This document shows, piece by piece, positions 12,090 through 63,867 of a stretch of DNA of 64,000 nucleotides. Source of the stretch: Argopecten irradians (lineage: Eukaryota > Mollusca > Bivalvia > Pectinida > Pectinidae); contig NC_091143.1 in the NCBI RefSeq assembly GCF_041381155.1, positions 32,985,331 to 33,049,330 on the forward strand, written 5' to 3'. The notes under the pieces are model-generated. The model ran no database searches, was not told where the DNA came from, and saw only the letters and a program-made list of their open reading frames with translations. Numbering within the stretch: position 1 is the stretch's first letter; each line of letters starts with the position of its first letter. The translations under genes were made by a program, and so were the position numbers.

Positions 12090-12357
12090 TTATGGCAGAT
12101 TCTCCCTAGCATCTTTATAAACTGCCTGTAGGAAACTGAACTTTTCAGAATTTATTATCATCACTTCACCTTTATCTTCACCGTCCGAGTAGACGGCCTC
12201 ACGACTCTTGCGCATGTTATTTTGTTTCTCTAGATCTTGTTCGTCTGATTCGTCAGGCCAATGGAATCCCACGAAAAGCTGATATGTAAATGCCCCGACC
12301 ACTGCACCGACGTGTGGGCCGATAACAGGAACCCAAAAGTAGGAAAAGCTTCGATGG
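12090..12357 (-). CDS. Aquaglyceroporin A terminal coding exon 6
   Basis: 268 bp with the stop. It encodes helix 6 (YFWVPVIGPHVGAVVGA) ending in GFHWP, then a charged cytosolic tail ending ARENLP. Gene B instead splits its tail over two exons. Confidence 0.94.
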
Positions 12358-27573: not shown

Positions 27574-27854
27574 AGAATATAGAGTTTTTGGCGTGTTTCC
27601 CCTTATTCAAACAGAGCATATCCATGCTCTTTAATGAAGCAGAACTAAAACAAATTCAAGGTGACTATTTTGAAAGTAAAACCGATAGCCAATCATAAAC
27701 AAAAGAGTAAACGCGGTATTAGTTTCTTTATTATATCAGCTAAACGTAATACAACAAGTATGATATAACAGGTAAGGTATTGAATGATAGGTTTCAAAAG
27801 CAACAGATTTAAAAAAATATCTTATGTTGTAGTACAAATACAGGAAATCAACAA

Positions 27855-28920
27855 AGGAAACGAAAGGACTTATCTCCAAGACAAACATTCTAAAATCAAC
27901 AAAGGAAACGTGAGGACTTCCCTCCAAGACTAACATTCTAAATTAACAAAGGAAGCCAGAGGACTTCCATCGAAGACCAATATTCAAAATTTACGAAGGA
28001 AAAAAGAGGACTTCCCTCGAGGAACAACATTCCAAATTAACAAAGGAAAACAGAGGACTTCCCTCGAAGACAAACATTCTAAAATAACAAAGGAAAACAG
28101 TGGACTTCCCTCGAAGACAAACATTCTAAAATCACAAAGGAAAACAGTGGACTTCCCTCCAAGACCAACATTCCAAATTAACAAAGGAAACCAGAGGACT
28201 TCCATCGAAGACCAATTTTCCAAATTTACGAAGGAAAACAGAGGACTTCCCTCGAAGAACAACATTCCAAATTAACAAAGGAAAACACAGGACTTCCCTC
28301 GAAGACAAACATTCTAAAATAACAAAGGAAAACAGTGGACTTCCCTCGAAGACAAACATTCTAAAATAACAAAGGAAAACAGTGGACTTCCCTCGAAGAC
28401 AAATATTCTAAAATCACAAAGGAAAACAGTGGACTTCCCTCCAAGACCAACATTCCAAATTAACAAAGGAAACCAGAGGACTTCCATCGAAGACCAATTT
28501 TCCAAATTTACGAAGGAAAACAGAGGACTTCCCTCGAAGAACAACATTCCAAATTAACAAAGGAAAACACAGGACTTCCCTCGAAGACAAACATTCTAAA
28601 ATCACAAAGGAAAACAGTGGACTTCCCTCCAAGACCAACATTCCAAATTAACAAAGGAAACCAGAGGACTTCCATCGAAGACCAATTTTCCAAATTTACG
28701 AAGGAAAACAGAGGACTTCCCTCGAAGAACAACATTCCAAATTAACAAAGGAAAACACAGGACTTCCCTCGAAGACAAACATTCTAAAATAACAAAGGAA
28801 AACAGTGGACTTCCCTCGAAGACAAACATTCTAAAATAACAAAGGAAAACAGTGGACTTCCCTCGAAGACAAACATTCTAAATTAACAAAGGAAAATACA
28901 GGACTTCCCTCGAAGACAAA
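27855..28920. repeat. 47-bp satellite, about 22 copies, with higher-order structure
   Basis: The unit is ACAAAGGAAAACAGTGGACT, then TCCCTCGAAG, then ACAAACATTCTAAAATA. Variant units (CCATCGAAGACC, TTTACGAAGG, GAACAACATTCC) recur in the same order every 188 or 282 bp (four or six units), so blocks of several units were amplified together. The repeated minus-strand frames of about 75 codons are by-products. Confidence 0.95.
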
Positions 28921-32300: not shown

Positions 32301-35300
32301 TAATCGTGGATGGTAACCAGGTATGATTGTAATGGTGGATTGTAATCGTGGATTGTAATCAGATATGATTGTAATGGTTGATTATAATGGTGGATTGTAA
32401 TAGTAGATTATAATCAGGTTTGATTGTAATGGTGGATTGTAATGGTGGATTGTAATGGTGGATTGTAATCAGGTATGATTGTAATGGTTGATTATAATGG
32501 TGGATTGTAATAGTAGATTATAATCAGGTTTGATTGTAATGGTGGATTGTAATGGTGGATTGTAATGGTGGATTGTAATGGTGGATTGTAATCAGGTATG
32601 ATTGTAATGGTTGATTATAATGGTGGATTGTAATCAGGTTTGATTGTAATGGTGGATTCTAATCAGGTATGATTGTAATGGTGGATTATAATGGTGGATT
32701 GTAATGGTTGATTGTAATCAGGTATGATTGTGATGGTGGATTGTAAATAGGTATGATTGTAATGGTGGATTGTAACCAGGTATGATTGTAATCATGTATG
32801 ATTGTAATGGTGGAATGTAAATAGGTATGATTGTAATGGTAGATTGTAAACAGGTATGATTGTAGTGGGGCCGCGGTGGCCAAGTGGTTAAGATGTCCCG
32901 ACATATTACCACAAGCCCTCCACCTCTGGGATGCGGGTTCGAATCCCATGTGGGGCAGTTGCCAGGTACTGACCGCTGGTCGGTGGATTTTCTCCGGGTA
33001 CTCCGGCTTTCCTCCACCAACAAACCTGGCACGTTCTTACATGACCCTGGCTGTTAATAGGACGTAAAAAAACCAAATTGTAATGGTGGATTGTAATAGT
33101 GGGTTGCGATGTTGGATTGTAATGGTGAATTGTAATGGTTGATTAAAATTGGGTATTGGTTGTAATGGTGTATTTTCACGGTGGATTGAAATGGTGGATT
33201 GTAATAGTGGATTGAAACCAGGAATGATAAAAATGTTGGATTGTAATCAGGTATAATTGTAATGGTGGATTGAAATGGTGGATTGTAACCAGGAATAATT
33301 AAAATTGTGGATTATAACCAGGCATGATTTTAATGTAAATGTTTCGATCTTTCGAGATGTTTGATTTGTCTCGTTGTGATACTGTTTTAGCTCTAGATCT
33401 TAGAAAAACTGATAATACTGGATGTAAGTGGGGAGACTCGCGATTACATTCTAATAACTAGGACTCAAAATGACGATTCTGGAATTTTCATACGTGATAG
33501 TGTTGTACAGTTATTAACTTTAATAGAGGTCACAATAAAAGACACATCAAGAGAGTCTGTAATAATGAGCGACTCGCATTTCAACAGTGTCCATACTTTG
33601 TACATTATATAATAAAGTTACATGTGTCGTAGTTGTCATTCTTACGAATCAAAAAGAGACTCACCGCCTAAAAAAATACCAACATTGTTTTTGACAATTA
33701 CAATACTTGCAATGCAGAGGTTTTAATCTAACAAAAACAAATAAGAGCCCAAAAATTAATTTAAGTAGTACTCCCAAAAATCATTTGGTATTCACGTCTA
33801 TAGTGCAGTAAAATGAGTTCACATGGTTAATTAAACCAATAATATGAATATTTTGACTTGCGGTTTATGGCTGGTAAAACAAACTTTTCATATTAAAAAC
33901 TACCATATATAAAACATGGTACTGCTGTGTCGGTTTTCCTTGTATAAACATATATGTCTACTTGTATGTTTCTAATTAATGTCTTATATCTCGCAAACTC
34001 CACCATTATTACAGATTAGCTAGAGCTCGCGCATTTAAATGATCGCGAATTTATGGTACATATCACATTCGTGAAATTAAGTCGTATCGAATAAAAGTTT
34101 ACCGTTTTAAGATCAATTATGAGGTCGGGTGATAGCTACATTTGTATATACAGCGGTGTCAATTTTTTTTACATTATGTAGCATCATGTATGACAATCTC
34201 TTCGGAGGCGTGGGTTCGTATCCCACCGCTGCCACCAATATAACGCACAATCACGTCACGTCCGGATGTTTGCAATCGCGAATTTATGGTACATATCACA
34301 TTCGTGAAATTAAGTCGTATCGAATAAAAGTTTACCGTTTTAAGATCAATTATGAGGTCGGGTGATAGCTACATTTGTATATACAGCGGTACAATTATCC
34401 TTCACTCGTTTGATTTTTTGTAAGAAATTAGTATTTCCTTAGTCTAATCAGGAGGGCTAGAGAATGTAATAGGAAAATACTTCAGAGGATAAAATATTGT
34501 TTATTATTTTCGTACCTGATACCCCTCCTGAGATGTATATCCCCATCATCACTCCTATCCCTTGGGACAGATAGATAGATAGAGAAGATCCCTGGGTCCC
34601 ACCACTTAGCAGCCACTGGGCATTCGCGCCATCACTAAATGCCTAGAAACCATAAAACGTTAGAACAAGAGGCCCATGGACCTTAACGGTCACCTGATAT
34701 TTGATACAAATTAGTTATGTAATTTACTATCCAACTGATGTCTTTTGTTCATGAAATAAGAACATAAACCTAAAAGGTATGCATGCAATAATCCATTAAG
34801 CTTGGTGCATATTTACTCACATTACCTTGTTCATAAGGTTCAATATTATCATCGAAAAGGGCAATAACTTAATAAGTTAGAGTCGAATCAAGCTTATTTT
34901 CAAACTTGTTCGAGATATGCAAAAGTTCATTAAGCTCTACATGTATATGCAAAAGTTCATTAAGCTCGATTCATAGTCACTCAATTTATCGTGTTAACAA
35001 GGTTCAATAATTATCATTGCAAAGAGCAATAACTACATAAATTACTGTCGACTCCTCCTGATTTTCGAATTCTTCCGAGATCGTTCCAATGCTAGTCTAT
35101 ACATACAAAGTTTCATTAAGCTCAGTTCATATTTACTAAATTTATCGCGTTCACAAGGCCCAATAGTAATTATTAGTACAAAGGGCAATAACTCCATAAC
35201 TTACTGTCGAATCATGCTAATTTTCGAACTCGTCCAAGATCTTTCCAATGTTATTCTACATACAAATTTCTCTCGTTGACAAGGAAATGTGAACGCACGA

Positions 35301-40736: not shown

Positions 40737-40808
40737 GACCAGATAGCTCAGTTGGTAGAGCACTCGGCTAGTGTTCTGAGGGTCCCGGGTTCGAATCCCG
40801 GTCTGGCC
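40737..40808 (+). tRNA. tRNA-like sequence (Thr AGT-like), gene or SINE head
   Basis: Intact A-box (TAGCTCAGTTGGTAGAGC) and B-box (GGGTTCGAATCCC) and a T-arm that pairs well. The acceptor stem has one A-C mismatch. The anticodon stem CTCGG/CTGAG pairs but closes an eight-base loop, CTAGTGTT, instead of seven, with AGT at 40770-40772. Flanking GTAGCGG and CCGCTAC extend the pairing outside the tRNA. The long loop and flanks favour a tRNA-derived repeat or pseudogene over a working tRNA. Confidence 0.4.
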
Positions 40809-42226
40809 GCTACATTTTCTCCTGTATATATACCAGGGATCAAATCTAGGTTGTGGGGAAAACTATGGTCCTTTTCAAAATTGGGAAAAGTTTATAATAG
40901 CTGCATTATCGGATATTTGACCATTCTCATTTTGGTAGAAATAATCATTTTGAAGTGTTATAACACCTAGAATGTTATTGCAGGATTCAGTAAACAGTTT
41001 TTTAAGCTCCATCATCATAGATATATGTAGCAGATGTATAATAAACATGAAGACATTTACAACCAAAGGCTTAAAATGTGATGAAAAATAAGACAAAGGG
41101 GGATTTTTGTCATAAAAAGTGTTCAGTTTTAGCTTCAAATGGGATTTTTTTTAAAGTTTAGAGGGTAATTCAATCCTTGAGGGGAACTAACCATAAACGG
41201 TTCTAAATCAGAGCTAGATTGATACCTGTATGTACATGTAATTGTTGTAAAAACAAAAACATACTCTTTTGAATGTTGTATACATCTACATTTGAACATG
41301 TTATGATGTACATACATGTAGTAACAACATTCATTTATTATTATTCATTAAGCATGTTTTCAGATGGTTTATTAGAAGACAAATTCAGTCTACAGGTTCA
41401 TAATTGTAGTCTGTTCCAATATGGTTATGATAGTGGGAAATGTTTATTTTAATTTACATACATACAATTAAAGTACATAACACAAATTAACAAAATGTTG
41501 TTACGGTGACATTAAATACTTTATTCAGTTCAAAAACATAGGTTTTGTTAATAATAATTTATAGAGTGGTATATTTATGTCGATACTGTAGGATGTATAC
41601 AAATCGTGAGACGTCAAACTCCTTCATGTGCTATGGTCGAAGACAATATTTATTGACCTATTTCACTGAAAACGGCTACTTTTAAGTGTTAGAATTAAAT
41701 CACAGATGCTTACAAACAAACATGATATGTAGACGTTTTATCTGTACATTTAATACAGCTGTCAAATCACCGTCAACAGTAATGTATCTACGCGAAAGGT
41801 ACGTGTATGTAACCAGTGTAATACCGCCATTATCACGTTACCGGGGACTTACAGTCGGTAGTTTTTCTAGTGAATATGACTTGACAGTTAACTATATTCT
41901 TTCACTTGGTTTAAACAGCAGTTCAAAATCCAAACATAACATTCATGTACCTCTAAAATTTCGTAATTTAAGTGTTTTACGCAAAAGATCAGCTGACATC
42001 TACTACCATGCAATGCTCTGTCCATGTAAACCGGAAGTTGCTTTACTCCCGGCGCCACTATCGCTTTACAAAGGGCGATAACTCAAAAAAGTTATGTTGA
42101 TACGTCTATACCAGGTTGTCTTTTTAAAATACGTGACCTTCAAACACGGTAGATGGCGTATTAACTGTATGTATGTTGATATGATGTGTGATTGAAGCCG
42201 TCATTTTCTATTATTTCTGACAGTCT
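40809..42226. other. Intergenic, no supported gene
   Basis: The 131-codon plus-strand frame at 41686-42081 lacks an ATG start and any family motif. An ETS-like block and GGCGATAACTC occur near 42030-42085. Confidence 0.45.
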
Positions 42227-43400: not shown

Positions 43401-44212
43401 CTTATTACTTTCAGATATCATATGTTCATGTCGTAATTTAATTTATCAACATATTTGGATGGTCCTTATGAAAATCAGTGTTATCTTCCTCTATTTTTAC
43501 TTATTTTAGAAAGCTTTATTTCAAAACATATGACAAACTTTCAACAAAATAGATTTATAAACATTTCATGACTATCGAATATTTGAAACCTGTATATTAA
43601 TTGATAAAGACAAGAGCACTCCTGTTACAATCTTCCAGTCATGTTACTACTAAAACTGCTTACAAAATGCTCTAAACATTTAACTATATCCTATTGGCAA
43701 AATGAAGCCATAAGAAGTTGCCATAGGGGAACATCTAAGTGTACATCTCTATATGTTGTGTTCCGTACCGATATGAAAAACTCAATGCAAAGTTAACTTT
43801 CACTTCTACTATTTTATTATGCAATTGAAATAATGCATTCAAAAATATGCATTCGTATATAATAAAAAATATATAACTATTCATATGATAAATATCTTAT
43901 ACAAACAACAATGAAACATTTTGATTTATTCATAACTCCAGAAGCAATGGTCCTTTTGGCACTACGCACTAACATGTTTCGTGGATTTCTATAGAGATAT
44001 GGTTCGCTTTGACCTACTCAGTTTTATAGCATTGGATATTCGTTCAGTTGCTTTCTATCTTGCATATTAGCACACACAAAAATAGAACAAATCTAATCAC
44101 AGAAAATTATATAACTATGTTAATAATGTTCAAGTTCTGGATTATATCATTGTGACGTATATCAGTTTTACTGTAAATACATTAAAAATGTTTCAGTGAC
44201 AACTTAATTTCA
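43401..44212. other. Intergenic, nothing recognised
   Basis: AT-rich sequence. No supported feature. Confidence 0.5.
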
Positions 44213-44505
44213 GGTAATACAAACGACACGGGTGACCAAGTTCTGTATTATATCAGGTAATACAAACGACACGGGTGACCAAGTTCTGAATCATATCAGG
44301 TAATACACACGACACGGGTTATCAGGTTATGGATTATATCAGGTAATAGACACGACACAGGTTATCAAGTTCTGTATTATATCAGGTAATACACACGACA
44401 CGGGTGACCAAGTTCTGAATCATATCAGGTAATACACACGACACGGGTTATCAGGTTATGGATTATATCAGGTAATACACACGACACAGGTTATCAAGTT
44501 CTTGA
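44213..44505. repeat. 43-bp tandem array, about 6-7 copies
   Basis: The unit is CAGGTAATACAAACGACACG then GGTGACCAAGTTCTGTATTATAT, with two alternating variants (GTGACCAAG and GTTATCAGG). Confidence 0.9.
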
Positions 44506-44582
44506 TTATGTTCTTCTTGTATTTAAAACGAATGATGAACAAAGAAGGCATTAAACAACAAATAAATGCCATAAATTTCTAT

Positions 44583-45375
44583 TACGTAACACCTTAATCT
44601 CTCTGAATTATGTAATGCTTAATCTCTCTTTATTACTTTACACCTTTTCTCTCTCTATTACTTTACATCTTAATCTATCTTTATTACTTTACACCTTAAT
44701 CTCTCTCTATTACTTTACACCTTAATCTCTCTTTATTGCGTTGCACCTTAATCTCTCACTATTACTTTACACCTTAATCTCTTTGTATTACTTTACACCT
44801 TAATCTCTTTGATTTATTACTTTACACCTTAATCTCTCTCTATTAAGTTACACCTTAATCTCTCTCTATTGCGTTGCACTTTAATCGCTCTCTATTGCGT
44901 TGCACCTTAATCTCTCTATTGCGTTGCACCTTAATCTCTTTCTATTACGTTACACCTTCATCTCTCTTAATACGTTACACCTTAATCTCTCTGTATTACT
45001 TTACACCTTAATCTCTCTCTATCATGTTACAGCTGTATCTCTCTCTATTACATACTATTATGTACGTTACACCTTAATCTCTCTTTATTGCGTTGCACTT
45101 TAATCGCTCTATATTGCGTTGCACTTAATCTCTCTATTACGTTACACCTTAATCTCTCACTATTACTTTACACCTTAATCTCTCTATTACGTTACACCTT
45201 CATCTCTCTATTACGTTACACCTTAATCTCTCTATTACGTTACACCTTAATCTCTCTATTACGTTACACCTTCATCTCTCTATTACGTTACACCTTCATC
45301 TCTCTATTACGTTACACCTTCATCTCTCTATTACGTTACACCTTAATCTCTCTGTATTACATATTATTATGCACG
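44583..45375. repeat. Pyrimidine-rich array of 20-25 bp units, about 33 copies
   Basis: The unit is TTACACCTTAATCTCTCTAT plus TACG. Strongly strand-asymmetric (pyrimidines on plus). Leucine- and serine-rich open frames through it are by-products. Confidence 0.93.
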
Positions 45376-47414: not shown

Positions 47415-50400
47415 CTGCAAAACATAATGAAAAAATTAGTCTTAAAACAAAACATTTTAACACATTTTATATATACATATATAATATCCACGTATTAATA
47501 GTAGCTGGCATGTAGCTTTAAAATATAGATTTGGAATTTTACAAAATGCGTTTTATTTATGAAAATTTGAAATAGTCTCTGCATTGCAAAACAAAAGATC
47601 TTAAATACGGCGCATAGGCCTTCTTGAACAATATCCAATTGATAGACAAGTTGATGAGTGTATTAAATAATGATCGCGTGTAGTTAATACACTGCCCCGT
47701 ATGTTATAATGAATAGATAACAGTGTCATGCATAACAATAAAGCGTGAAGAACGATATTCTGTCTTGGCATGAGAAACAGAATCCGATAAAAAAATGTGT
47801 ACATCCAACAGAGTAAGAAAACCAAGTAAAGCATAAAGTCATGAAGCTAGACAAATACCACAGTATTCCGATATATTCCCTACTGATGTGAAATCATTAT
47901 GCAATCCTTGATACTGCATTAGTATAATAGTAATATTTGTCACAAATATTTTTATTGCTATCATGATGCATGGTTTTAACACAGGATGTTTGGAAGAAGA
48001 ACAGACTTAGTTATATGTCCACGAACAAGCAGTTGAAATAAGGGATATTCATATTGGTATATACACTCTAAATAGATAGGATTTATTTCGATTTTGTTGA
48101 CTTACGCTTTGATATGACAAGGGGAATATACATGTACATGTATTACAGTCTCCAAACCACTATGGATCTTACTACCCACTGCACGAAAAATAATGGGAAG
48201 GTGTTCGCATCACGTGCAAACAAGCAGTGCTTCACGGATAAATATTTGTACTATTGATATTCAACGCTACAATCATCACACAAAAAACTGAGTGAAAGCT
48301 GACTTACTGAAATACACACAGAAATTAGTAACAAGAAAAGGAATATCAATTTTTTTATTGTCTTTTACAAACGTTAATTGAAGAGTGTGATCGACAAGTA
48401 TGGCCAGAACATAGAAACATAGACCTTGACTATAAGCGGTAATAAACGTGTGGAAATACCCGGTTACTGATCATGAAATGAGTTTTGAATTTCGTCCGAA
48501 AGACAGAACTGAAAAGTCGAACAAGAAAAAGCCCAACACAAAGGATTGTATGTATACCAAAGACGAGTAGAACTTTACCTGTAATCTTCGCTGGCTTATC
48601 GCCTTTGGATCTAAATTGTAAACAGGTCTAATTAATAACTAAGCTCTTAGCAGCGAAACAAATCCGGCGAAATAAACACTGATTCAAAATATATCGTTTT
48701 CATCAATAGCTTTTAACGACAGCGGAAAATAGAGCAGAGATTCGGAATGATAACTTAAAAATGTACTAAGAATTTCAAAATTTGAGAAATTTTGATAAGA
48801 TATATTATTACCAATTGTTATTATATATAACGTTTTGCACGTTCGTAAATGTGACAAACTCAAACGTGTTCAATAATTGTTATGTATGTAGATTTGTACG
48901 TTGTGCTGTTGTAATTTATACCTAGTGTAAAAACTAATATTAAACAAGAGGCGCAAGGGCCTTAAAGGTCATCTGACTACCTTGGCAATAATCGTATAGG
49001 AAATTAATTAGATATAGTGTCATGGTAGCCAATTTCAATTTGTGTTTCGGGACCATGTCTGGATAATTTCTTGCAAGTTTCAGCCAAACAGAAGTTAAGA
49101 AGAAGTTCAAAATGTGTGTTTTAAAGATGGCGGCTGTGGCAGCCATCTTGGATTTCGGATCGACACGAAAAATAACAACACTTTGTCAGCACCATGTCAG
49201 GATCATTTCATACAAGTTTCAGCCAAATCGCATAGGTAAAACTTAAGAAGAAGTTCAAAATGTGTTTTCAAGATGGCGGCTGTAGTGGCCATCTTGGATT
49301 TCGAATCGACCTCAAAAATAACAACACTTTGTCAGCACCATGTCAGGATCATTTCATACAAGTTTTAACCAAACCGCATTGGTAAAACTTAAGAAGAAGT
49401 TCAAAATGTGTTTTCAAGATGGCGGCTGTAGTGGCCATCTTAGATTTCGGATCGACCCGAAAATAACAACACTTTGTCGGGACCATGTCAGGATCATTTC
49501 ATGTAAGCTTCAGCCAAGTCGCACCAGTAGAACTGAAGAAGTTAAAGATACTTTTTCAAGATGGCGACTGTGGCGGCCATCTTGGATTTCGGATCGACCC
49601 GAAAAATAACAACACTTTGTCGGGCCCATGCCAGGATCATTTCATGTAAGCCTCAGCCAAATCGCACCAGTAGAACTTGAGAAGAAGTTCAAAATACGTT
49701 TTCAAGATGGCGGCTGTGGCGGCCATCTTGGATTTGGGATCGACCTGAAAAATAACAACACTTTGTCGGGACCATGTCAGGATCATTTCATGCAAGTTTC
49801 AGCCAAACCGCACGGGTAGAACTAAAGAAGTCCAAAATAAGTTTTCAAGATTGTGGCTGTAGCGGCCATCTTGGATTTCGGATCGACCCAAAAAATAACA
49901 ACACTTTGTCAGCACCATGTCAGGATCATTTTATGTAGGTTTCAACCAAATCGCATCGGTAAAAATTGAAAAGGATTTCAAAATGTGTTTTCAAGTGGCG
50001 GCCATCTTGGATATCGGATCGACCTGAAAAATAACAACACTTTGTCGGGACCATATCAGGATCATTTCATGCAAGTTTCAGCCAAACCGCACGGGTAGAA
50101 CTTGAGAAGAAGTTTGAAATGTGAAAAATTAACGTACGGCGGACGACGACGGACGAAGCATGGTGACTATAGGTCATCCTGACACTTCGGGGCAGATGAC
50201 CTAAAAACTAATTTAAAAAGATTCCTAGATTGAATTTTATGGTCAATGGAACAATTTATTGAAAAAATATACATCAATGTACTAATTAGATATGTATTCG
50301 ACCTCGTACTACAACGAGTCACACAATACCACGTACATCGCATGTATCCAACTCTACGGATCCAATATCAGTTTAACTTTTCGAGTATATTTTAGATTGG

Positions 50401-53400
50401 GCAAACATTAAAAATATATTAAGATAATAATGATGTTTCTAAAATCTAATGAATAGCTTTTAATCAATTATCTGTAGATGTGCTATTGTATCTTCTATTA
50501 TAACCATCAAACACATGCTCTATCAGACGTAAGAGAGTAAATATATTGAGTTGTCTTCAGACATAGGAGACAAGCACTATGATTTGATATAATTTAAGAT
50601 GCTCCATCGCTGGCAAATGGCATTTTTTTTGCTATCAAAAACAGGAGCAGACGAATTAGTATTTTTCTTCAGTTACAAAAGTTACTTATTTTACACCATT
50701 ACCACCATTGAAAAGTTTGAGCTTTCTAATTTTATTTCAAGACAAAAATATTGAAAACAATTAATTGCATCCCGAAAAAAATCCGTCACTCTATGTTCGA
50801 TATGGAATGAAATATTGATTGCGCATGCACCAAAACCAAAATAAATTACTTCACATTTTTTCGTGTTAATTAGACATATATATACACGATTAAACACCAA
50901 TTATTGTTAAATTGATGAATATCGTTTATGCTCTGTCGGCGGTGGAGCATCTTTAACTAACTACCAAGGTGATCTATGATATATTTATATGTTAAAGTAT
51001 ATGATAATATGATATAGTTAACTAAGTACCAAGGTAATCAATGATAAATCTATAAATTACAGTCTATGATATAGTTAACTAACCACCAACGTTATCAATG
51101 ATATATCTGCATGTACATATGTTTTAAATGTATGATATATACCAGACGGTGAAATCGTTAACTTACTCGCGCAGTCTTTACTGAGGAACATCGGACTTAG
51201 TAGTCAGGATTCTGGTTATGAAGTAACATCCTTGCATTAGTTTAGGGTTAGAATCAAGCCGTCAAATTAAGCACATATACTGTATATAGACCTACAAAAT
51301 CTCGCGCAATAAAATTTCAGAGCAGCCCTGATTTTGATGAATTCACGCCATCCAGAAAAGGCAATTAATAGAACATTCTGAACGCTGAAATCATATTACC
51401 TCTACAGTATGTTTACAACATCTTGTTCTATGTGTGTTTTAGCGGACTTAACTCCCTACAGTGTTAATGGTTTTCTTTGTCCAAACACAACAATAACAAC
51501 GCACGCATTATGTTTTTTCCATTCCTTTACATTTACAGGCTAGAAATTGGCTCTACATAAATTTTCTCCTTACCTGATTTTGGAGAAGTCTTTTCTGAGC
51601 GTCCACTGGTCTTTCCGGGAGAGGTCTGCCGCTCATAGCGGCGGACGACCGTACCCTTGTATTAGAGTTGTTGGGTATCGTATAGTTACGGTCAGGAAGA
51701 GGGGGACCTGTTACCGTGGAATCTCTCTGTGGGCCTCCTGGCGTACGGCTGGCTCGCACTCGACTCGCCTGTTGCTGTGGACGGTATTAGATTTAACTAA
51801 ATTTAACACATGGTGACGTTTTATACAAAAACTTGAGTTATAGGAAACCTTTTATATTCTAAAATTGATACGTTCAGATGCAGATAAAAGTATTCTTAAC
51901 AGATTATTATTTGACTAGCAGATAAAATACACAAGAGAAATAGACGAAATTTAAAAATGAACTGTCTTGATATCAACCTTATATTTTATAACTAATCGCT
52001 GCTTGAAATTGTGAGAAAATATTATGATGACAAAAATAATAAAATTTATTAAACAACACGCACACCATCGATAAATGAAAAGTGCAAAGGAAAACATTCA
52101 ATCGTAAATGTTTAATGGCAGAACTTCTACATTACAATGTTCAGAAATTGTGAGATAAAAGACAAAAACGACATTTAAATGAAAACAGCACATTCATGTT
52201 CTTAAGTACGCTTTAATTTTTTATTGTTGTTAGATAATTTGCATAAAGCTATAAGCTACAAACCTTGTTATGTTTCAGTATGCATGCAAGTGCTTATTCT
52301 GCACATTTTCTTATTTCTATGGGTTACTTTTTCGTCACAAAATGACCTGTAATGAATATCTAACGATTCTCGTACCATATACATTCATATTCCACACTCA
52401 TTGGAAAAAAATAAATCATGACACCATTCTATAGATATAGTTTCTGCAAATTCAGGATTTCAAATCACATAAAATGACGATTGGACTGTAGCTGCAGCAT
52501 GGGGATCTTTCTGTTACAAACATTGCCATTTCTGCAACAAAACGACTTTTTGTAAAGTGAAGCGTTTATACATTTATAATGTATTTTTTTTAAAGAGAAT
52601 CACCTTGAGAATCAATTCAACATAGATATTATACAGTAGTTGAAATTTCACTTAAGAATAACCAAAAAAAGAGTTATAATTGTTTATTTCATTATCAGTA
52701 GTTTAAGTGTTTAAATTGAACCCAGTTTTGACATGATGTTTTCCATAGATAGTAAGAATAGTATATTTGCATAATTTCATTATTAAGTTCGGGAACGTTT
52801 GTAACAGGGAGATCACTTTCAAGAAAAGCCAAGGGAGAAGCAGTTGAGAATGGGTTAGGTTTAGAAATGCTCTTACTCTTCTAGGGCCTGAAGAAATCGG
52901 CCTTTGCGGCGGTGCCTGTTATTGGAACACAGGTCATAGTTGAGGTTGGATCAAGATAAAACGTGAAGTATATAATGTAATATTTACAGCCGGTTATATC
53001 TGCGGGTAAGGTTTGTGTTTACATTTTTTATTTCCAGAGGAGTTTAACTTCGTAATCTGACTTAAAGAATTTAATATTATTCACAACACCTTTTTTCATT
53101 TCATGAATAAAAGTTCCACTGCCATATCGTTGTACCATAGAATTGTGAAAATATCCCAACAAAAATAACCGGCTAATCAACATCTGATTAACACAGTGTG
53201 AGATCAAATATAAATAGAACGTATTTACTGTAAAATTTTCTGGGCTCAATTTCTGGGATAAAAAAAAAATCATAATTTTATTGGCTTGTGTGAATACAAG
53301 GTTTTTAATCATTGTCTGCACTGTTAGATACGACATTTAGACGTGTCAAGCCGAAGTTTGTGGGTGAAGATCAGATTTCTAATGAACAAAGCACACATGA

Positions 53401-56400
53401 CATTTAAAATATTTATTAAAAATAGAAAATTTTGTGTGGACTTTGTTGATTTTGTTCAACAACGAGAAATCATTCCCTTCAAAATATAATGCTTTCCCAG
53501 CACATATTTGTTTTTGGTTGGAACCATTTCTTTGGTTAATGCCAAATGAAATTAAATATATCAAATTAAATTACGAAATACCAACAAATCTTACAAAAGG
53601 TAACAATTTCCGGCTGTATTTGCACCTTATATAACATATTACAGGTGATTAAATGTGTCCACTAGGTTCAAAACCTAAATTCTCTAAATAGAATGAATGA
53701 TATCAGAATCGTTTGTTTTCTTTGGCATTTGGTTTTGCGATATTTCTTTCCTGCAGGTAGACACAAAATCATGCATTTGATATCCCTTGATAATGTAATT
53801 TACAAAGCTCAAATTGATTTTTTTTGTAAATTCTGTCCAAAGTGAGTTTAAATTTAAAGAACACACAATTTTGACTAATAACAAAAATAAATTGAATCTA
53901 AATTGCGTTTCTCCAACATTCTTCTTCAAACAAATACAAATTTATTTATCAAACCAAAATAAAAAAAGACTTATTAATGAAGTGATTGAATATCATTATC
54001 TTCTTTATACATATGAATATATATTTATGCTTGTCTTACCTTTTGCTCCAGTTTAAAGTAGTAGTTCTCAGGCATAAGTTCCTGATAGTCACAGTTTCCA
54101 TCCTCCTGTCGACAAACACATTGGTTTTAAATATTACGTTCCACGATCTGTTTCTAAAACATGTTCATGTGGTGTTGAGCTTGAATTTAACTAAATAAGC
54201 AATTGTACGATTGTACATTACTATTGCAATTGTTTACTGACAAAATATAACAATTGTTGGGGGAGACGCTGATGTAATAGCTCTCTCGCCAGTAGGTCAC
54301 ATAGTACAGCAGGTGGATGATGCTGTGAGGTACCCAGCGCCGTAAGTAACAGGGCCTCTCATTGGCTATCGCGGCGATTGAAAGGCGGGACATATGTTAC
54401 CTTGTTCTGCACTTTCTCATAGTCAGATCTAGTGTCAGGCTGATATAAATACATTTCTCAGATAATTCACATATTACAAATTTGCTGATTATAATGTTTC
54501 GTCAGCTATTAGTGGCAATATCAAAGACACACACAACATTAACATAATTCTATTCAAAATACACCGCCATGTAATCTGTAATCGTAAATTCCTCCAATTT
54601 TTGGAGAACCGTTTATGAATCAATATAAAGGGTGGTGGGAGTCGTTGCAGGGTTCTTCCAGAATGGTTGCTGAAAACGTATACCCAATTAACTCCATGTT
54701 TGATTTACCGGAAACCGTGACGAAATGAAACAATCAACAGGTAAAAAGTTTTGAAGTTAATAAGTCAATAAACTCAGAACAAACATTGTGAAACGCCAGT
54801 ATCATTTGAATTTTACCCATTTTGACCTACTGTCCCAGCGAGCGAGCTGTTGCATCAGCGACTCTCCCCAGCGACTTGTTGTATTTTGTCAGTAAGTCTT
54901 CAAAATCATTTTGTAAAGGACGTTGTGTCTACAATTTTACAAATGATCCATGTCAGGTTTCCGTTTGGTCTTTTCCGCTTCTGTTCTAGTTTCGTTTCCA
55001 AATATTGGCATTGGTTTATTATGAAGATAGTAATTTCATTTCATTAATATGTTCATTGAAGACAAAAAATATATTAACTAAGTCAACGAAAGAATAATCA
55101 AGAAATATATATACTACCTGTCCACATGGTTCAGACAAATATCCTTCCCAGTTTGAAAGGTGATTCTAAAATACAATGTTCCTAATAATTAATGATATTA
55201 ATGAAAACACTACAATTATGCATGTATATCAATTATATCTTTTTATTTTTATTTCCATTATCGAATGACATATACCATCATACTTGTTCACTTTCAAGAT
55301 GAAGTCACTTATTTAATAACCTTTCAAGGCAATGGAAGCCAGTTTAACATAATATATACTTAAAGAGAAAACAATGTCATATGTGAAAAAAGTACACAAT
55401 CACCCCAAAATTTTCCAAATAAAAAAATTTGTCAATCTGCCTAAAAGAATTAAATACAATACCCCAGTTCCACAAAGGGAAACTCCGAAACTTATTAGCT
55501 TATAATTCTCCATAGGAAAGCATTAAAGAACTTTTCATATCATCCAATAATGTTTTCTTAGGGGAAATTTAAGTTACGGGAATTCCTTAAGGCTTGTTTG
55601 TGACACTGCGTGGACCCGTATTAATATTAAAGGTTCCAATTATGGTATCACTTTCATGAACTCGGCGTTCGAGAAAAACGGACCTATCTTTTTAAAACCG
55701 TGATTATTTTAATAAATGTGGTATATAAACTAGTGACGCATATCTTACCTTAAACAGAAATACTTCATCTTTCTAATGAGTGCTTGATGAACAAAAGTGG
55801 CCAATTATTGACGAAGTTAGGGCCTGATGAATAGGGAAATTTACGAAAAATATGCTAGATAGACATTTCCCTGTTAGTCGAAATGTCGTCTCGCCTCTAA
55901 AGGGTAGCTCAAAAACAAAGCCGAAATCACAAAATCTACGCTTGTGGTGGTAAAGAGTACCTATAACTGAGTTTTTCCACAATCTGCTTTGGAGGTGTCA
56001 TGTGCCGTAGTTTGTAGAAACTCCATTTAAACATCGTGTAGCTCACTTACTTTAACCATAACCGCTATGTTCATTTGATCTTCAGAACGCTTCCCGAATT
56101 TACTGACAAGCGCAACACTACATAATTTGCATAATGCAGTCACAATATGTAAAATCGAGAAGCATTCTGAAAAAAAAATAAGTATGGCGGTGATGGTTCA
56201 CGAAAGTGAGCTACACGATGTTTAAATAGAGTTTCTACAAAGTATGGGATATAACATATCTAAGAACGAGATTACAGACTCTCAAATATTTGCCCGTTCT
56301 CAACTTAAGATTTGAGAATTGAGAATTAAGAACGTTTGTGAAAGCCAATTTTAAGCATATGCTTAAAAATAAGCATATTCAAAGTTAAGAATTGAGAACA

Positions 56401-59400
56401 GACTTAAGAAGTTTTGTGCAAGCGGGGCCTGGATCTTACCGAACTGTAGTAGTCAACCAAATCCTTCAATGTCCGATGAACTTTTTTCTCTCCAACGATC
56501 ACAAATTTTTTATTGGGAAGTTGATCTATCATGTAATGTCTGACCCTGCCCTCGCCCCTACAAACAGTAGTGGACATACATGTTATTTCAAACAGAGATA
56601 ATTACAGCAATAAACCCAATAATAATATTCAGTTGTTTCGTAGCAGATCAGTCAACGGGCAAAACTCTTTTTCTGAGGTGTTGGGACCAATGCGATGAAA
56701 TACCGAAAACAGTTCAGCAGGTTGGTTCCAACACCTCGGGAAAAGAGTTCTGACTGTTGACTGATATATCATGAAACAACTGTTTCGTTACCTGAACCGC
56801 AATCTTGAACCTTTTACTGCCTCTGGAGAGAAGACCTTAGTCAAAAGAATACTTAGGCTGGCCTTCAACAATGGAGCCTATTAAAATGTTCCTCATCGGT
56901 CAGCAGTCAAACTATTGACCGGTCAATAGTTTTTGAGGATTTGTATATTTGTAACGATTTTTAAGTAAGTTAAAAATATTTTATTTACATTTATATAGAG
57001 CGTCAGGAAACAAAATTAAATATTACATATTCAATATGTTGTACATATGTTTGATTTTAAATTTTTATAAATATAGTGTAAGATATTTAGAAAAATTAAT
57101 TGTTTAATTACTTCATTTTCAGAATAATTAGAATGGAAGCAAACACAGCTGCAAAATCCATTAACAGAAGATGTATACATTTACTCATTGTGAGAATTAC
57201 CTGAATGATAACGTGTATCCAAATCGACTTTCACTGACTCGTATGAGAAAACAGCCAATCGGTTTTGAGCCAAGGAGGACCTCAGAAGTTCTGAAATAGC
57301 ATTAAATATGCATGAAAGTATTTGTGTGCGTTTGGGGGCTTTTGGTGGGTTGTGTTGTATACTGATTGAACAGTGTTTGCGTTTAAAGGGACTATGGAAG
57401 CATTTGGATACAGACACATTCTACATATAGCACGTTAGCTGTTCAATCCATAAATTTACATAATTTGTCTACTTTTGCATGTTCGTTGTAATGGTATTGG
57501 TTTCCATGTTGGGTACCTACAGTAGTCTGGATTACCGAAGATATATAAAGTTCCACTTGTTGAACTATAGCTGTACGTCATTTCATTGCAAATATAACAA
57601 TGATATATATATATATATAACTTTAAGATGTCAAAGTAGTGATGCAGTTTGAAGTAGAGAGATATTGATGGCCGTTGATAACATGGTTTGAAACTACACC
57701 CTAGATACATGTACTGAATTTATGACATGGAGAACCCAAAACTGGATTTCCATAGCCAAAACATCCATACAGTTTTAGAAAGGAGAGACAAATGCTTGCA
57801 TGGTGTATGACTTATATCAAATGAAAAAGACTAAAGACCAAATGGAACCACTCGGCGATGAAGCTATGTTATAACACTAGACTCTACCTCAGACTAATCA
57901 CCCCATGGAACCACTCAGCTATGAAGCTATGTTATAACACTAGACTCTACGTCCGACTAATCACCCCATGGAACCACTCAGCCATGAAGCTATGTTATAA
58001 CATTAGACTCTGCCTCAGACTAATCAGCCCATGGAACCACTCAGCGATGAAGTTATGTTATAACACTAGACTGTACCTCTGACTAATCACCCCATGGAAC
58101 CACTCAGCCATGAAGCTATGTTATAACACTAGACTGTACCTCTGACTAATCAGCCCATGGAACCACTCAGCCATGAAGCTATGTTATAACACTAGACTCT
58201 ACCTCAGACTAATTAGCCCATGGAACCACTCAGCCATGAAGCTATGTTATAATACTAGACTGTACCTCTGACTTATCACCCCATGGAACCACTCAGCCAT
58301 GAAGCTATGTTATAACACTAGACTCTACCTCAGACTAATCAGCCCATGGAACCACTCAGCCATGAAGTTATGTTATAACACTAGACTGTACCTCAGACTA
58401 ATCAGCCCATGGAACCACTCAGCCATGAAGCTATGTTATAACACTAGACTGTACCTCTGACTAATCAGCCCATGGAACCACTCAGCCATGAAGCTATGTT
58501 ATAACACTAGACTGTACCTCAGACTAATCAGCCCATGGAACCACTCAGCCATGAAGCTATGTTATAACACTAGACTGTACCTCAGACTAATCAGCCCATG
58601 GAACCACTCAGCCATGAAGCTATGTTATAACACTAGACTGTACCTCAGACTAATCAGCCCATGGAACCACTCAGCCATGAAGCTATGTTATAACACTAGA
58701 CTCTACCTCCGACTAATGACCCCATGGAACCATTCGGCGATAAAGCTACTGACGGCGGGGTCATACACCTGCTGTGACTGGGTTTCCTTGAACCACTTCA
58801 CCGTGGCCTGGCGTGTCCCCGGGGTTCCGAATTGCGTCGATGATATGGGTTTAAACTCGTCATCAGAGAACTGATCAGAGTCAGAACTGTCGGCCTAAAA
58901 AAGAAGAAAATTAATGATCATTTATCAAGATAATTGTTAACCTATAAAATCACCAATAAGTAAGAATTATGCTTATCCTATTCATCCCTTAAAGTCAATA
59001 ATGGACTGGTCTAGTAAAGCAATGCATCTCCTCCACTGCTCACAAAAGGGGGAATAGAAGACGTACAGTATGCAAACTTATATTAATTGAAAGATCTGCC
59101 AGGAATAAAGATCAAAATCGATAAGACAAAACGCAAGAAATGATCAATCTAATGTGTATTATGGCAGGCAATGTTGTTAAATTTACTTTAAGGAAACGGT
59201 TTATATTAGACAACTAGCTTAAAGGGAAACTCAATTATTTTCAGAAAAGAGACATGTTTCACACCTGAGTTCCAAATGAACGGGAGGTTGGACCCACAGG
59301 TTCCGTGTATTTGTTTCCTGAGCTTCGTGGAGTTGCGATGCCGTCAAACGAGGGTACAGGAGGGGGAGGTAACTCATCCTTTCCAGTTTTGAAGTACGCT

Positions 59401-62400
59401 GAAACAAAAACCACAGTTAATGTCGTCCAATATCGACTCAGTATATCAGTAAGAATCAAATGCTCAATTATACAAAAACATCATTGTTAATTTATATCAA
59501 TCATCTGCTTTCAAAAATTGTATAACCAAGAAAACAGAAACAAATTATTCTTATTGTGTGCGTGAATTTTCCATTTTTTCAATAAACACCTACATGACCA
59601 GCTCTGTAACTTACAGATTTTCTGATTTATAATATAATTCCCCCTACCTGGAGGAATGGCTTTGTCGTGAACCCTGGCGCTGTGTTGATGATTGTTGACC
59701 TCAATAGACAAGTTGGATATCTTATTGGGTGCGTAAATTTTCCATTTTTTTCAATAAAAACTACATGACCAGCTCTGTAACTTACAGATTTTCTGATTTA
59801 CAATATAATTCCCCCTACCTGGAGGAATGGCTTTGTCGTGAACCCTGGCACTGTGTTGATGATTGTTGACCTCAATAGACAAGTTGGATATCTGGGAGAG
59901 AAAGTTGTGTACACGTTGTGCCTCTTTCTGAGCTTCCAGCTTCCGTAACTTGACTCGTTGTCTGGCTAGGAACCCTCTGACAACTAAAACAGCAGACATA
60001 ACATTTATAATATTTCAATAATTTTTGTGCTACTTAAAAATTCCAGGACTATTTTGAAAAAAAATTTACCAAAGTGTCATTGCACTTTATCTTCGGATCT
60101 GTATTCAGGTATACTGTAATGTTCTTACATAAACAAGTGGCCAATGGGCTTTAACGGTCACCTGAGTTTGAATATATAATGAAACAAATTAAAGACAAAT
60201 AGACACTATATACTGGGCCTTGAAGTTGGTCAGTCTATGAAGAGTATTTGCTTCCATTAAACCTGTGAACTTAGAAGAAGAATTTTTTGAAATTTTAGTC
60301 ATTTTGACCCTGTTTGGTCACACCCCTCTGGTCCCCTAAGGGGTCAGCGAGGACCGATATGGATGTTTAAATGCTATATCTCAGGCTATTAATTCTAATC
60401 AAGTTTGACTCACTGTGATTTTTCTCCTTATATAACTGGGGTCAGTAAACGACCTGTTTTACAATGCCAAACCCCCCTATATTTTTCCCAATTACAATGA
60501 AAAATTCCCAAATCGAATTTCAGAGAAAAAGAAGCGGCCCATGGGCCTTAACAGTCACCTGAGTTCATATACAGAATGAAACAAAGACATATAACCACTT
60601 ACATTGGCCCATCAGGCTCTTGAAGGCAGTCAGTGATTTTATAAATTTGACTTTTTAATTTATGAAGAATATTTGATTCCATCAAATCTGTGAGGAAAGA
60701 TTTTTGAAATGTTATCCATTTTGACCCCTTTTGGCCCCGGCCCTCTGGCCCCTGGGGGTCGACCAGGACCAATATGAATATGACGTATGCTATATCTCAG
60801 GCTAATAGTTCTAACCAAGATTGGCTAATTTCCTACTAAACTAAGCAAATAATGTTAATAAATGTGTTTTTCCTATATAAACTATGGTAAATTTGACCCC
60901 CTCCCAAGGAGAAAATCTGAGAACCCAGGGCCATATAATTCACAATTTTTATAAAACACTGTAATACTTTTCTATCTATAAAGAGTATTGATTCTACCAT
61001 TTCCAAATTTAAAAGATTTTTGAAGTTTTAGCCTATTTGACCCTTTTTAGCCCCGCCCCTCTGCCCCCAGGGTGTCTGCCAGGACCAATAAGGATATGAT
61101 ATCGATATTGAAATGCTATCTCAGACTAATAATTCTAACTAAGTGTGACTCATTTCCTTTGAAAATTGAGCAGAAAATGCTTATAAATGTGTTTTCCTAT
61201 ATAAACTATAGTAAATTTGACCCCCTCCCCAGGGGGAAACGTTAGACCCCAGGGTCATATAATTCACAATTTTTATAAAACACCTTAAGACCGGCCTTTA
61301 CATCATCCAGAATTTTAGAAGTTTTAGCCTATTTGACCTTTTTGGCCCCAGGGGGTCGACCAGGACCATATTATATGGATATGATGAGTTAAAATGCTAT
61401 CTCAGGCTAATAACGCTAACCAGGTTTGACTCATTTCCTATGAAAATTGAGCAAAAAATGCTCATAAATGTGTTTTCCCTATACAAACTATATAGTTAAC
61501 TTATATAAACTTGACCCCCTCCCCAGGGGGAAACGTGAGATCCCAATGTCATATAATTCACAATTTTTGTAAGGGACCTTAAGACCTTTCTATCTATGAA
61601 AAGTATTTGATTCTGCTATTTCCAGAATTTCTTCAGAAGATTTTTGAAGTTTTAGCCTATTTGACCCCTTTTGACCCTGACCCTAAGGCCCATGGGGGTC
61701 AGTCATAGAAAATTTGTTAATAGGATTTAATGGCCATCTCATATTGATAATTCTGACAACAGTTTACTCATTCCTATTACAAATGACCAAATAATGCTCA
61801 AAAATGTGTTTCCCTATATAAACTATAGTAAACTTGACCCCCTCCCCAGGGGGAAACGTGAGACCCCAGGGTCATATAATTCACAATTTTTGTAAAGGAC
61901 CTAAGGCCTTTCTATCAATGAAGAGTATTTGATTCTACCACATCTGTAAGTAGAGAAAAAGATTTTTGAAATTTTAGTCAATTTTACCCCTTTTGCCCTA
62001 TATATATAATTGGCCACTACCACAGCCCCCTGGGGGGGAGAGGACCATAAAATTCAAAATTTTGATTGGCCTTATGTCTTCGAAAGTTTGTGCCAAATTT
62101 CATTGAAATTGCTCCAGCAGTTATGGAGAAGAAGTCGAAAATGTAAATTGTTTACAGCCATACGACGGACGACGCACGACGGACAAAAGGCGATTAAAAA
62201 AGGTCACTTGAGTCTTTTACCTAGAACTCAAGATTACTATTACCTGGATATACGTGGATATACAATGTACCTGGATATGAGGAACAGAAATCAAATATAT
62301 TGTAAGTCTGTGTACCTTTCTGAAGATGAACTGCAGACTTCCCCATCACTTTAAAGATGTCTGACAACTGTTCAAGATGATAGTACTTCATAAACACTTT

Positions 62401-63867
62401 GGTTTTCCTGTAAAGTGTTACACATAGTGTCAGCCACACTCCATCACATGAAATAGCATTTGCACATTACTAAATAAATTCCAATATATAGCATGTTATA
62501 CAAATTTCAACTGATATAGACTTTCAATGTAAAATATATGCAGAAGGCATATGCAATTCCTGTGACAGATTGATGTGTCAAGAGTTAAAATAAAAATAAA
62601 GATTGTTTTTCTCTCACATCTTGGTTCCCTAATATGCATCCCCTATGTTATATTTTAAGCTACGTCGAATACGGTATTATTCTTACCCAACTTGCCAGCC
62701 AGTGATTTTACTGGCTTTAAGGATCCGAACACAGTTCTGTTTGTTTCCGTCTAGACTGGCCTTACACAGAAGGATCTTGTACCTAAAGATTTAAACTTCA
62801 CCCATTAGCATGAATTAAAACATAATTTTTTCCCTTTCCAGAATCACCTCGTATTGAAAATCATTAAAACTTCACACATTTAATATTCCTTTTTATATAT
62901 TGTAGTCATTTTTTTCAGTTTTCAGTATAATAAAACATCTAAGCAATTAATATATTATTCTCTATAAAGAATATATTATTGATATACATATTTAGAATTC
63001 AAATCATCGGAATAAGCCCAGAGGTCAGCTCGATGTGTGCTCTTCTCAGATCAGAAAATCTTCCACTTTATAGACACAGGAGCTTCCAGACACTGCAGAA
63101 CTACAAATGGAGTAAACAGAAGTTATATTCTAGAAAAAGATGGAGCAGATCGAGAAACCTCTGAACACGAATCCTTACTTCTCTACAAATTCTGGGAAGG
63201 ATGGTCGCACAGCGAAACCCTCTCTCCGAATCTTGATAGTTTCCAGCATCCCAGTGTATAATAACTGTAAAGAAATGATATAGAATCATCAGACATTGGA
63301 TCAGATAAAATAGTGATAAAACGAAATGATACAGAATCATCAGACATCGGATAAGATTAATAGAATCTTACATTGGTCTGTCAAGTGAACTGAGATATCC
63401 AGGATACCCGAGTGAAAGATTTTGGCAGTCAACCTGAACCTTGCCATGGGTTGACGGCCAAAATCTGTCATTGGAGTTCAGATATCCTTGTCCACTTGAC
63501 AGATCCATGTTTGATTCTTTTTTCTCCAATACTTAGTAGGGTTCTCGTTGCTTTCCAGCTTTTTCATTGCGTTATTATCACATGAACATCGTTATGTGTC
63601 AAAATTGATGACGTCATCGAAAAAATGCACGACTTGGCTTTGCCGCTTATATTGATGAGGTCATTTTATTATATAGCGCATGTGAGCTATCTTACACAGG
63701 CCCACAGATTTGTTTACTATTATAAAGATTTACACAATTCTCATTACCTGATCCCTTATATAAGTTTCGTCAAACTTGCCGGGAACTTTCACATGATTTG
63801 GTTTCAAACATCGGACAAACACTGGTGACGACGACATCATCCTTTCCATCAGAATCTGTAAGGAGTT
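47394..63867 (-). CDS. Unconventional myosin with C-terminal SH2 domain (3' part, 474 aa visible)
   Basis: Actin-based motor joined to a phosphotyrosine-binding tail. Thirteen exons: 63748-63867, 63179-63264, 62687-62782, 62316-62407, 59819-59983, 59265-59398, 58707-58894, 57201-57290, 56440-56557, 55118-55165, 54040-54105, 51574-51774 and 47394-47414. All phases join. Visible residues 1-131 are the motor end (PVFVRCLKPN, YTGMLETIKIRREGF, GKTKVFMKYYHLEQL). One IQ motif follows (LQKVVRGFLARQR). Then come a charged segment, a proline-rich stretch (ELPPPPVPSFDG), an acidic linker, an SH2 domain (about 284-375) and a tail with Pro/Arg motifs. The SH2 has WFHG, FLIRVSES with the phosphotyrosine Arg311, and RHYMI with His331. 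The motor looks closest to class III, judged by eye only. The N-terminal part lies beyond the window. Confidence 0.92.
47415..48943. other. Myosin last intron, unique part
   Basis: AT-rich sequence with no repeat recognised. A 32-bp segment at 48579-48610 has AG and GT borders but gives a stop in the expected phase. Confidence 0.45.
48944..50205 (+). repeat. GGTCACCTGA-type repeat with seven internal 145-bp units
   Basis: It starts AACAAGAGGCGCAAGGGCCT and ends CGGACGACGACGGACGAAGC...GATGACCT. Seven internal units each contain AAGATGGC...GGCCATCTT, an inverted pair, plus ATAACAACACTTTGTCGGGA. Lies in the last myosin intron. Open frames through it are by-products. Confidence 0.9.
50594..50956 (-). 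mobile_element. TTAA-bordered MITE, copy 3 (inverted)
   Basis: 363 bp with TTAA at both ends, the reverse complement of 27209-27573. The ends are GATGCTCCATCGCTGGCAAA and CTGTCGGCGGTGGAGCATC. Lies in the last myosin intron. Confidence 0.88.
50957..51130. repeat. Tandem repeat of about 60 bp, 3 copies
   Basis: TTAACTAA(C/G)(T/C)ACCAA then a block ending ATGATAT recurs three times next to the MITE. Confidence 0.75.
51574..51774 (-). CDS. Myosin exon: Pro/Arg-rich tail
   Basis: 201 bp, phase 0 at both ends. It has two proline motifs (GPPLPDRNY, GRPLPERPV). The acceptor is a tandem CAG/CAACAG, so two codons may be optional. Reading past the donor adds VRRKFM and a stop. Confidence 0.85.
51775..54039. 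other. Myosin intron
   Basis: Long AT-rich intron. Several minus-strand frames of 60-100 codons (such as 53028-53336) show no motif or splice support. Confidence 0.5.
54040..54105 (-). CDS. Myosin exon: post-SH2 segment
   Basis: 66 bp, phase 0 at both ends, good acceptor and donor. It encodes CDYQELMPENYYFKLEQK, with several tyrosines in acidic context that could be phosphorylated. Confidence 0.85.
54106..55117. other. Myosin intron
   Basis: Nothing recognised between the two exons. Confidence 0.5.
55118..55165 (-). CDS. Myosin exon: SH2 end
   Basis: 48 bp, phase 0 at both ends. It encodes NHLSNWEGYLSEPCGQ, matching the LxxPC ending of SH2 domains. Confidence 0.88.
55166..56012. other. Myosin intron, 3' part
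   Basis: Unique AT-rich sequence. No supported feature. Confidence 0.5.
56013..56242. mobile_element. MITE of about 230 bp with long inverted ends
   Basis: The ends TTTGTAGAAACTCCATTTAA then ACATCGTGTAGCTCACTT and their complement (about 50 bases) face each other. It lies in an intron between two SH2 exons. No coding content. Confidence 0.8.
56440..56557 (-). CDS. Myosin exon: SH2 beta-D to helix B
   Basis: 118 bp. It encodes GEGRVRHYMID, KKFVIVGEKKVH and LKDLVDYYSS, all typical of the SH2 second half, with the beta-D4 His present. Confidence 0.94.
56630..56785. mobile_element. Short inverted-repeat element, about 155 bp
   Basis: The arms contain CAGTTGTTTCGTAGCAGATC and AACTCTTTTTCTGAGGTGTT with complements on the right, leaving a small loop. 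Probably a MITE in the same SH2 region. Confidence 0.75.
56786..57200. other. Myosin intron
   Basis: AT-rich, nothing recognised. Confidence 0.5.
57201..57290 (-). CDS. Myosin exon: SH2 beta-B strand
   Basis: 90 bp. It encodes SEVLLGSKPIGCFLIRVSES and FGYTLSF. The FLIR arginine is the residue that holds phosphotyrosine in SH2 domains. Confidence 0.93.
57845..58745. repeat. 63-bp minisatellite derived from the SH2 exon end and splice donor, about 14 copies
   Basis: The plus-strand unit is CCCATGGAACCACTCAGCCA, then TGAAGCTATG, TTATAACACTAGACTGTACC and TCAGACTAATCAG. On the minus strand each unit reads as the 41-base end of exon 58707-58894 (AEWFHGLIS-like) followed by AG|GTA and 20 bases of intron. 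The unit at the right edge is the real exon. The period is 21 codons, so plus-strand frames of 74 and 128 codons arise by chance. Confidence 0.93.
58707..58894 (-). CDS. Myosin exon: acidic linker and SH2 start
   Basis: 188 bp, phase 0 in and phase 2 out. It begins ADSSDSDQFSDDEF (casein-kinase-like acidic serines) and ends with AEWFHGVISR, the start of SH2. Its last 41 bases plus donor are copied about 14 times in the following intron. Confidence 0.93.
59265..59398 (-). CDS. Myosin exon: proline-rich tail
   Basis: 134 bp, phase 1 in and phase 0 out. It encodes AYFKTGKDELPPPPVPSFDG and SFGTQ. PPPPVP could bind SH3, WW or EVH1 domains. Confidence 0.9.
59551..59892. repeat. 171-bp tandem duplication covering part of the IQ exon
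   Basis: Copy 59722-59892 contains the last 74 bases of exon 59819-59983, its donor and intron sequence. Copy 59551-59721 repeats it with few changes. The extra copy has a donor and an AATAAG acceptor-like site, but in the incoming phase it reads into a stop after a few codons. Confidence 0.9.
59819..59983 (-). CDS. Myosin exon: IQ motif and post-IQ segment
   Basis: 165 bp. It completes the single IQ motif (VVRGFLARQR) and encodes a charged helix (KLEAQKEAQRVHNFLSQIS). Its last 74 bases and donor are part of a 171-bp tandem duplication lying downstream in the next intron. Confidence 0.93.
60130..62215 (+). repeat. Large GGTCACCTGA-type repeat with nested start
   Basis: It begins ACAAGTGGCCAATGGGCTTT then AACGGTCACCTGAG. 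A second left end (GCGGCCCATGGGCCTTAACA) starts near 60530, so one copy is inserted in or fused to another. About four internal units of 290-330 bp share CCCCTCCCCAGGGGGAAACG and ATTCACAATTTTTGTAA. The right end is ACGACGGACGACGCACGACG...AGGTCACTTGAG. It lies in the intron before the IQ exon. Confidence 0.85.
62316..62407 (-). CDS. Myosin exon: converter end
   Basis: 92 bp. It encodes GKTKVFMKYYHLEQL and the beginning of the lever helix (SAVHLQK). Confidence 0.95.
62687..62782 (-). CDS. Myosin exon: converter part 1
   Basis: 96 bp. It encodes YKILLCKASLDG and VRILKASKITGWQVG, leading to the converter end. Phases fit both neighbours. Confidence 0.92.
63179..63264 (-). CDS. Myosin exon: SH1-helix region
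   Basis: 86 bp. It encodes LLYTGMLETIKIRREGFAVR and SFPEFVEK, the standard relay/SH1 segment of myosin motors. Confidence 0.95.
63265..63350. repeat. 50-bp tandem duplication, about 1.7 copies
   Basis: GAAATGATATAGAATCATCA then GACATTGGAT recurs after 50 bases in the intron just upstream (in gene direction) of the SH1-helix exon. Confidence 0.75.
63374..63507. repeat. Hairpin element, about 134 bp
   Basis: The arms contain GTCTGTCAAGTG, GAGATATCC, AGATTTTGGC and TCAACC, with the complements in mirrored order on the right around a loop CCTTGCCATG. A MITE-like fold-back in a myosin intron. Confidence 0.75.
63748..63867 (-). CDS. Myosin exon: actin-binding helix region
   Basis: 120 bp, phase 0 at both ends. 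It encodes SPVFVRCLKPN, the near-invariant motor motif, and ends TYIRDQ. It is the first exon visible; earlier motor exons lie outside the window. Confidence 0.95.

Follow-up and report, generated by a model that had tools for sequence, protein, structure and literature searches.

A candidate class XXVIII myosin gene with a tail SH2 domain in Argopecten irradians

The window analysed here, a stretch of 64,000 nucleotides of Argopecten irradians DNA, carries at one end a chain of 13 exons on the minus strand. The chain runs from 63867 to 51574; all 12 junctions have GT-AG borders and agree in phase. Its exons, and a tandem array that overlaps one of them, are as follows.

63748..63867, minus strand: C-terminal part of the motor, NSLQILMERMM...VRCLKPNHVKVPGKFDETYIRDQ; GT-AG; Myosin_head profile positions 564-603 of 679 (alone, E 3e-7 and 29.5 bits, under the Pfam cut-off of 33.3 bits)
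63179..63264, minus strand: motor/converter exon, LLYTGMLETIKIRREGFAVRPSFPEFVEK; phase-matched GT-AG; aligned to myosins X, VIIa and XV
62687..62782, minus strand: converter exon, YKILLCKASLDGNKQNCVRILKASKITGWQVG; phase-matched GT-AG; aligned to solved myosin structures
62316..62407, minus strand: end of the motor and start of the IQ motif, KTKVFMKYYHLEQL...HLQK; the Myosin_head match ends at product residue 108
59819..59983, minus strand: remainder of the IQ motif, whose match ends here, then a short charged stretch that may be coiled coil; alone, it matches no Pfam family
59265..59398, minus strand: proline-rich linker, ELPPPPVPSFDG; phase-matched GT-AG
58707..58894, minus strand: acidic linker, WFKETQ and SH2 start (EWFHGVISR); SH2 match from product residue 286
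57842..58748, unstranded: 63-bp tandem array, 15 copies as counted by the core TGGTTCCAT (Tandem Repeats Finder and copy list)
57201..57290, minus strand: SH2 exon with the betaB Arg (FLIRVSES); alone, 19.5 bits and E 0.001 against SH2, below cut-off
56440..56557, minus strand: SH2 exon, from the betaD His-Tyr (RHYMI) to LVDYYS; alone, 24.8 bits and E 2.4e-5 against SH2
55118..55165, minus strand: end of the SH2 region, NHLSNWEGYLSEPCGQ; aligned to HSH2D through the LTQPCRQ ending of the latter
54040..54105, minus strand: tail exon with tyrosines, EDGNCDYQELMPENYYFKLEQK; phase-0 GT-AG
52877..52915, minus strand: probable 13-codon exon, APPQRPISSGPRR; phase 0 at both ends, GT-AG; not confirmed by homology
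51574..51774, minus strand: probable exon with the SH3-ligand-like motifs PPLPDR and RPLPERP; phase 0 at both ends, GT-AG; not confirmed by homology

The 13 exons encode a product of 481 amino acids that is open throughout. Use of an alternative in-frame acceptor for the last exon (start at 51768) gives 479 residues, and the first 11 exons give 401; none of these lengths equals the 474 residues proposed by the initial annotation. The four SH2 exons that it had placed at 58707-58894, 57201-57290, 56440-56557 and 55118-55165 were recovered to the exact base, each bounded by an AG acceptor and a GT donor and in phase with its neighbours. The gene begins beyond the window edge at position 64000, so that what is visible of the motor is its C-terminal end (product residues 1-108). 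Within the 13 joined exons there is no terminal stop and, since the last of them closes with a donor, the gene probably continues past 51574. Inspection by eye of the 134 stop-to-stop frames of at least 70 amino acids, a length that misses shorter exons, disclosed no terminal exon below 51574.

Pfam searches, whose E-values served to judge the likelihood of chance matches, recognised three domains above their cut-offs in the single reading frame of the 401-residue product, in the arrangement that had been proposed from the sequence. A myosin motor, judged on its C-terminal end alone, was identified by a match to Myosin_head over the final 116 of its 679 profile positions (564-679; E 3.3e-25, 88.9 bits against a cut-off of 33.3). 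One IQ motif follows at residues 124-143, straddling exons 62316-62407 and 59819-59983; its score is barely above threshold (E 2.1e-4, 21.2 bits against 20.3). The SH2 domain (PF00017) is complete, covering profile positions 1-77 of 77 (E 3e-18, 66.1 bits against a cut-off of 21). From the motor end, the product continues with one IQ motif and a short neck rich in charged residues; a proline-rich linker then leads to the one SH2 domain. In viral contigs, a pattern search for relatives of the 167-residue motor and neck produced 17 matches, none of which was confirmed.

All the SH2 signatures listed by the initial annotation (WFHG, FLIRVSES, RHYMI, FVIVGEKK, LVDYYS and the LxxPC ending, here LSEPC) are present, as are the tail tyrosine motifs ENYY and CDYQEL. 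Its claim that both phosphotyrosine-contact residues are in place was borne out by the alignment with HSH2D, from which we read three conserved residues: an Arg in FLIRVSES, an Arg in EWFHGVISR and the His of RHYMI, which we take to occupy structural positions betaB5, alphaA2 and betaD4, respectively. Their conservation suggests that the domain is probably competent to bind ligand. Among the best 60 of 229 matches to solved structures, HSH2D (2cs0) ranked first (E 3.1e-21, 78.7 bits), and its alignment, which begins at EWFHG and closes with PCxQ, has no gaps. The next relative within the same 60 was SYK (68.3 bits for the two-domain chain, 47.6 for its best single domain), and further ones were PLC-gamma-1 (60.5 bits over two stretches) and RASA1 (58.8 bits over one stretch). 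The residue at betaD5 is Tyr. A review, in its specificity table, places HSH2D in the group that recognises pY-x-N and has Tyr or Phe at this position (PMC9783222). The 481 visible residues include 17 tyrosines, and none of these lies in a Y-x-N context (N at +2). Assuming that the specificity of HSH2D carries over, this finding disfavours the self-binding that had been entertained for the domain; we set aside binding through Y-x-N on this argument, which applies to the visible 481 residues.

Solved structures gave no direct indication of the motor's class. The best relatives of the visible motor end, among the best 60 of 149 matches, were myosins X (E 5.3e-27), VIIa and XV; as no class III, XVI or XXVIII motor occurred among these 60, the ranking assigns no class. 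The published tail descriptions were more informative. Class XXVIII myosins, as described in passages of Odronitz and Kollmar (2007; PMC2375034), have a motor, an IQ motif, a short neck or coiled coil and a single SH2 domain in the tail, and include proteins of frog, chicken and some fishes. The same source gives the class a bootstrap of 750 of 1,000, among the lowest in that tree, and a later study, in the passages cited, places the origin of class 28 as far back as the ancestor of holozoans, on account of Capsaspora (Kollmar and Muhlhausen 2017; PMC5583752). The vertebrate members contradict the initial annotation's remark that it knew of no SH2 domain in any vertebrate myosin. Since this class was described in 2007, vertebrates included, the myosin found here belongs to a known type, and we discarded the idea of an unreported architecture. 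Of these tail features, the IQ motif and the SH2 domain were found by Pfam, while the short charged segment is a possible coiled coil. On the strength of the published tail description, and with the motor known here from its C-terminal end, the gene is probably of class XXVIII.

The gene could instead belong to another branch with kinship to classes III, XVI and XXVIII, for example as a myosin III-like gene particular to one lineage that acquired its SH2 domain independently. This appears improbable to us, although it fares better than the other alternatives. Choanoflagellates and filastereans are reported to have myosin III-like genes with SH2 domains (Sebe-Pedros 2014; PMC3942036, in the part cited here), seven orphan myosins of Monosiga have such a domain too (PMC2375034, likewise), and the window displays the C-terminal end of the motor only. 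Against this, an IQ motif, a short neck and one SH2 domain are the tail published for class XXVIII (PMC2375034), and the orphan myosins that the cited passages of PMC5583752 name from lophotrochozoans carry an MH2 domain, not SH2. Class III myosins are characterised by an N-terminal protein kinase domain (PMC3942036, same part).

The 63-bp array lies across the 3′ border of the first SH2 exon. Tandem Repeats Finder gave 14.4 copies with 94% matches and 0% indels, and the spacing is 63 bases in all 14 intervals. Copy 1 is the 3′ end of exon 58707-58894, including its splice donor, while the last copy is degenerate, sharing 39 of 63 bases with copy 1. The usual splice donor is GTRAGT. That of exon 58707-58894, GTAGAG, looks weak on direct comparison with it, and 12 of the 14 intronic copies have a GT at the equivalent place. 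These two features would fit a decaying gene in which the array disturbs splicing at the SH2 border. We regard such decay as very unlikely: the 13 exons contain neither a stop nor a frameshift, and copy 1 retains ISR followed by AG and the GT donor. ISR is otherwise kept in the copy at 57976, and the succession of AG and GT after it is found in copy 1 alone. In 11 of the 14 intronic copies, CATAG is followed by 39 nt and a GT, which would make an in-frame, stop-free microexon if CATAG served as acceptor; use of these microexons was thought unlikely, no clear polypyrimidine tract being apparent by eye. Elsewhere in the gene, a 171-bp tandem duplication in two copies (59549-59893) takes in the donor of exon 59819-59983 together with the end of that exon; the donor string occurs twice. 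Additional intron repeats lie at 60.2-62.2 kb.

Scarcely credible, finally, is a myosin gene whose neighbour, a gene for an SH2D2-type adaptor, merely appears joined to it. HSH2D, the nearest solved relative of the SH2 domain among the best 60 of 229, is a motorless adaptor, and the intron may hide an alternative first exon. However, the junction phases match and lead back into the motor, and the spliced frame is free of stops between the IQ motif and the SH2 domain. Exons 59265-59398 and 58707-58894 contain no Met codon, and an in-frame stop lies in the intron directly upstream of 58894, so that translation of the SH2 part could not begin separately at this place. We rejected two separate genes on these grounds (phase, missing Met, upstream stop). 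The published myosins of other animals share the architecture, as far as the cited text of PMC2375034 describes them. Exon 58707-58894 itself carries the linker together with the start of the SH2 domain. As the SH2 exons extend the myosin reading frame, their product is not a motorless adaptor of the SH2D2 type. Altogether, we are fairly confident that the window holds the 3′ portion of a gene that is intact and codes for an unconventional myosin of class XXVIII type.

If so, a mode of action can be proposed. The motor would act on actin, with the IQ motif binding calmodulin or a light chain, and the SH2 domain would dock the motor on tyrosine-phosphorylated proteins of the membrane or of adhesions. 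By analogy with HSH2D, the docking sites would probably be of the pY-x-N type. Kinase activity would then set the place where the motor acts, and the proline motifs downstream may recruit SH3 partners. Recruitment of the motor by tyrosine-kinase signalling, as the initial annotation had it, is a sensible inference. SH2 myosins of this sort would form a direct link between tyrosine-kinase signalling and an actin motor. In a survey of open-licence literature (titles and the beginnings of abstracts), none of the titles listed dealt with the function of an SH2 myosin; it seems that these class XXVIII proteins, catalogued since 2007, have been little studied in this respect.

The rest of the window holds exons of at least two aquaporin-like copies on the minus strand (12093-13482 and 29528-30289), with MIP matches at 13159-13482 (E 5.8e-13) and 30071-30289 (E 3e-10) and weaker ones, below the Pfam cut-off, in neighbouring stretches (1.8e-4 and 0.0055). 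These copies contain NPARD, which we take to be typical of aquaglyceroporins. The segment 35564-35779, similar to the MIP exons by eye, gave no MIP match in Pfam. The single Rfam match at the gathering cut-off was a tRNA at 40737-40809 on the plus strand (51.3 bits) with an odd anticodon loop, perhaps a tRNA-derived element. Tandem Repeats Finder returned 46 rows across the whole window; long minisatellites, with units of 13 to 177 bp, occupy 4809-6575, 14851-15417, 17944-18554, 27845-28917, 31325-32849, 44210-45353 and 49090-50123.

SH2D2A (TSAd), HSH2D and SH2D7 are adaptors of lymphocytes and other cells. Adaptors of this SH2D2 type have no motor, in contrast to the gene described here. The similarity to human HSH2D nevertheless extends past the SH2 domain on both sides: from WFxxTQ before the domain to DYxxL after it, 53 of 127 columns are identical to a provisional HSH2D sequence, flanks included. 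Of the 142 letters of this provisional sequence, 108 were aligned to 2cs0, with mismatches at the first and last residue only; WFVHTQ and DYEDL lie outside this check. A common descent of the SH2D2-type adaptors and the class XXVIII tail, perhaps through loss of the motor, is an idea suggested by these alignments that we hold to be possible but doubtful, a lead and not a result. Were it true, the tail of a motor protein would have a common ancestry with some adaptors of the immune system. The listings surveyed contained no title linking SH2D2-type adaptors to myosin tails. The review that tables the three adaptors (PMC9783222) does not use the word "myosin" in its main text.

With class XXVIII, as characterised in the cited passages of PMC2375034, the gene has in common a myosin motor, an IQ motif, a short neck region and one SH2 domain in the tail; set against that published description, the proline-rich segments that flank the SH2 domain on either side are features seen here. 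An SH2 domain in the tail is also what it shares with the myosin III-like proteins of choanoflagellates and filastereans (PMC3942036, in the part cited). Those genes belong to unicellular relatives of animals, and the choanoflagellate ones form an expansion with mixed sets of domains (same source), whereas the gene described here is an intron-rich gene of an animal.
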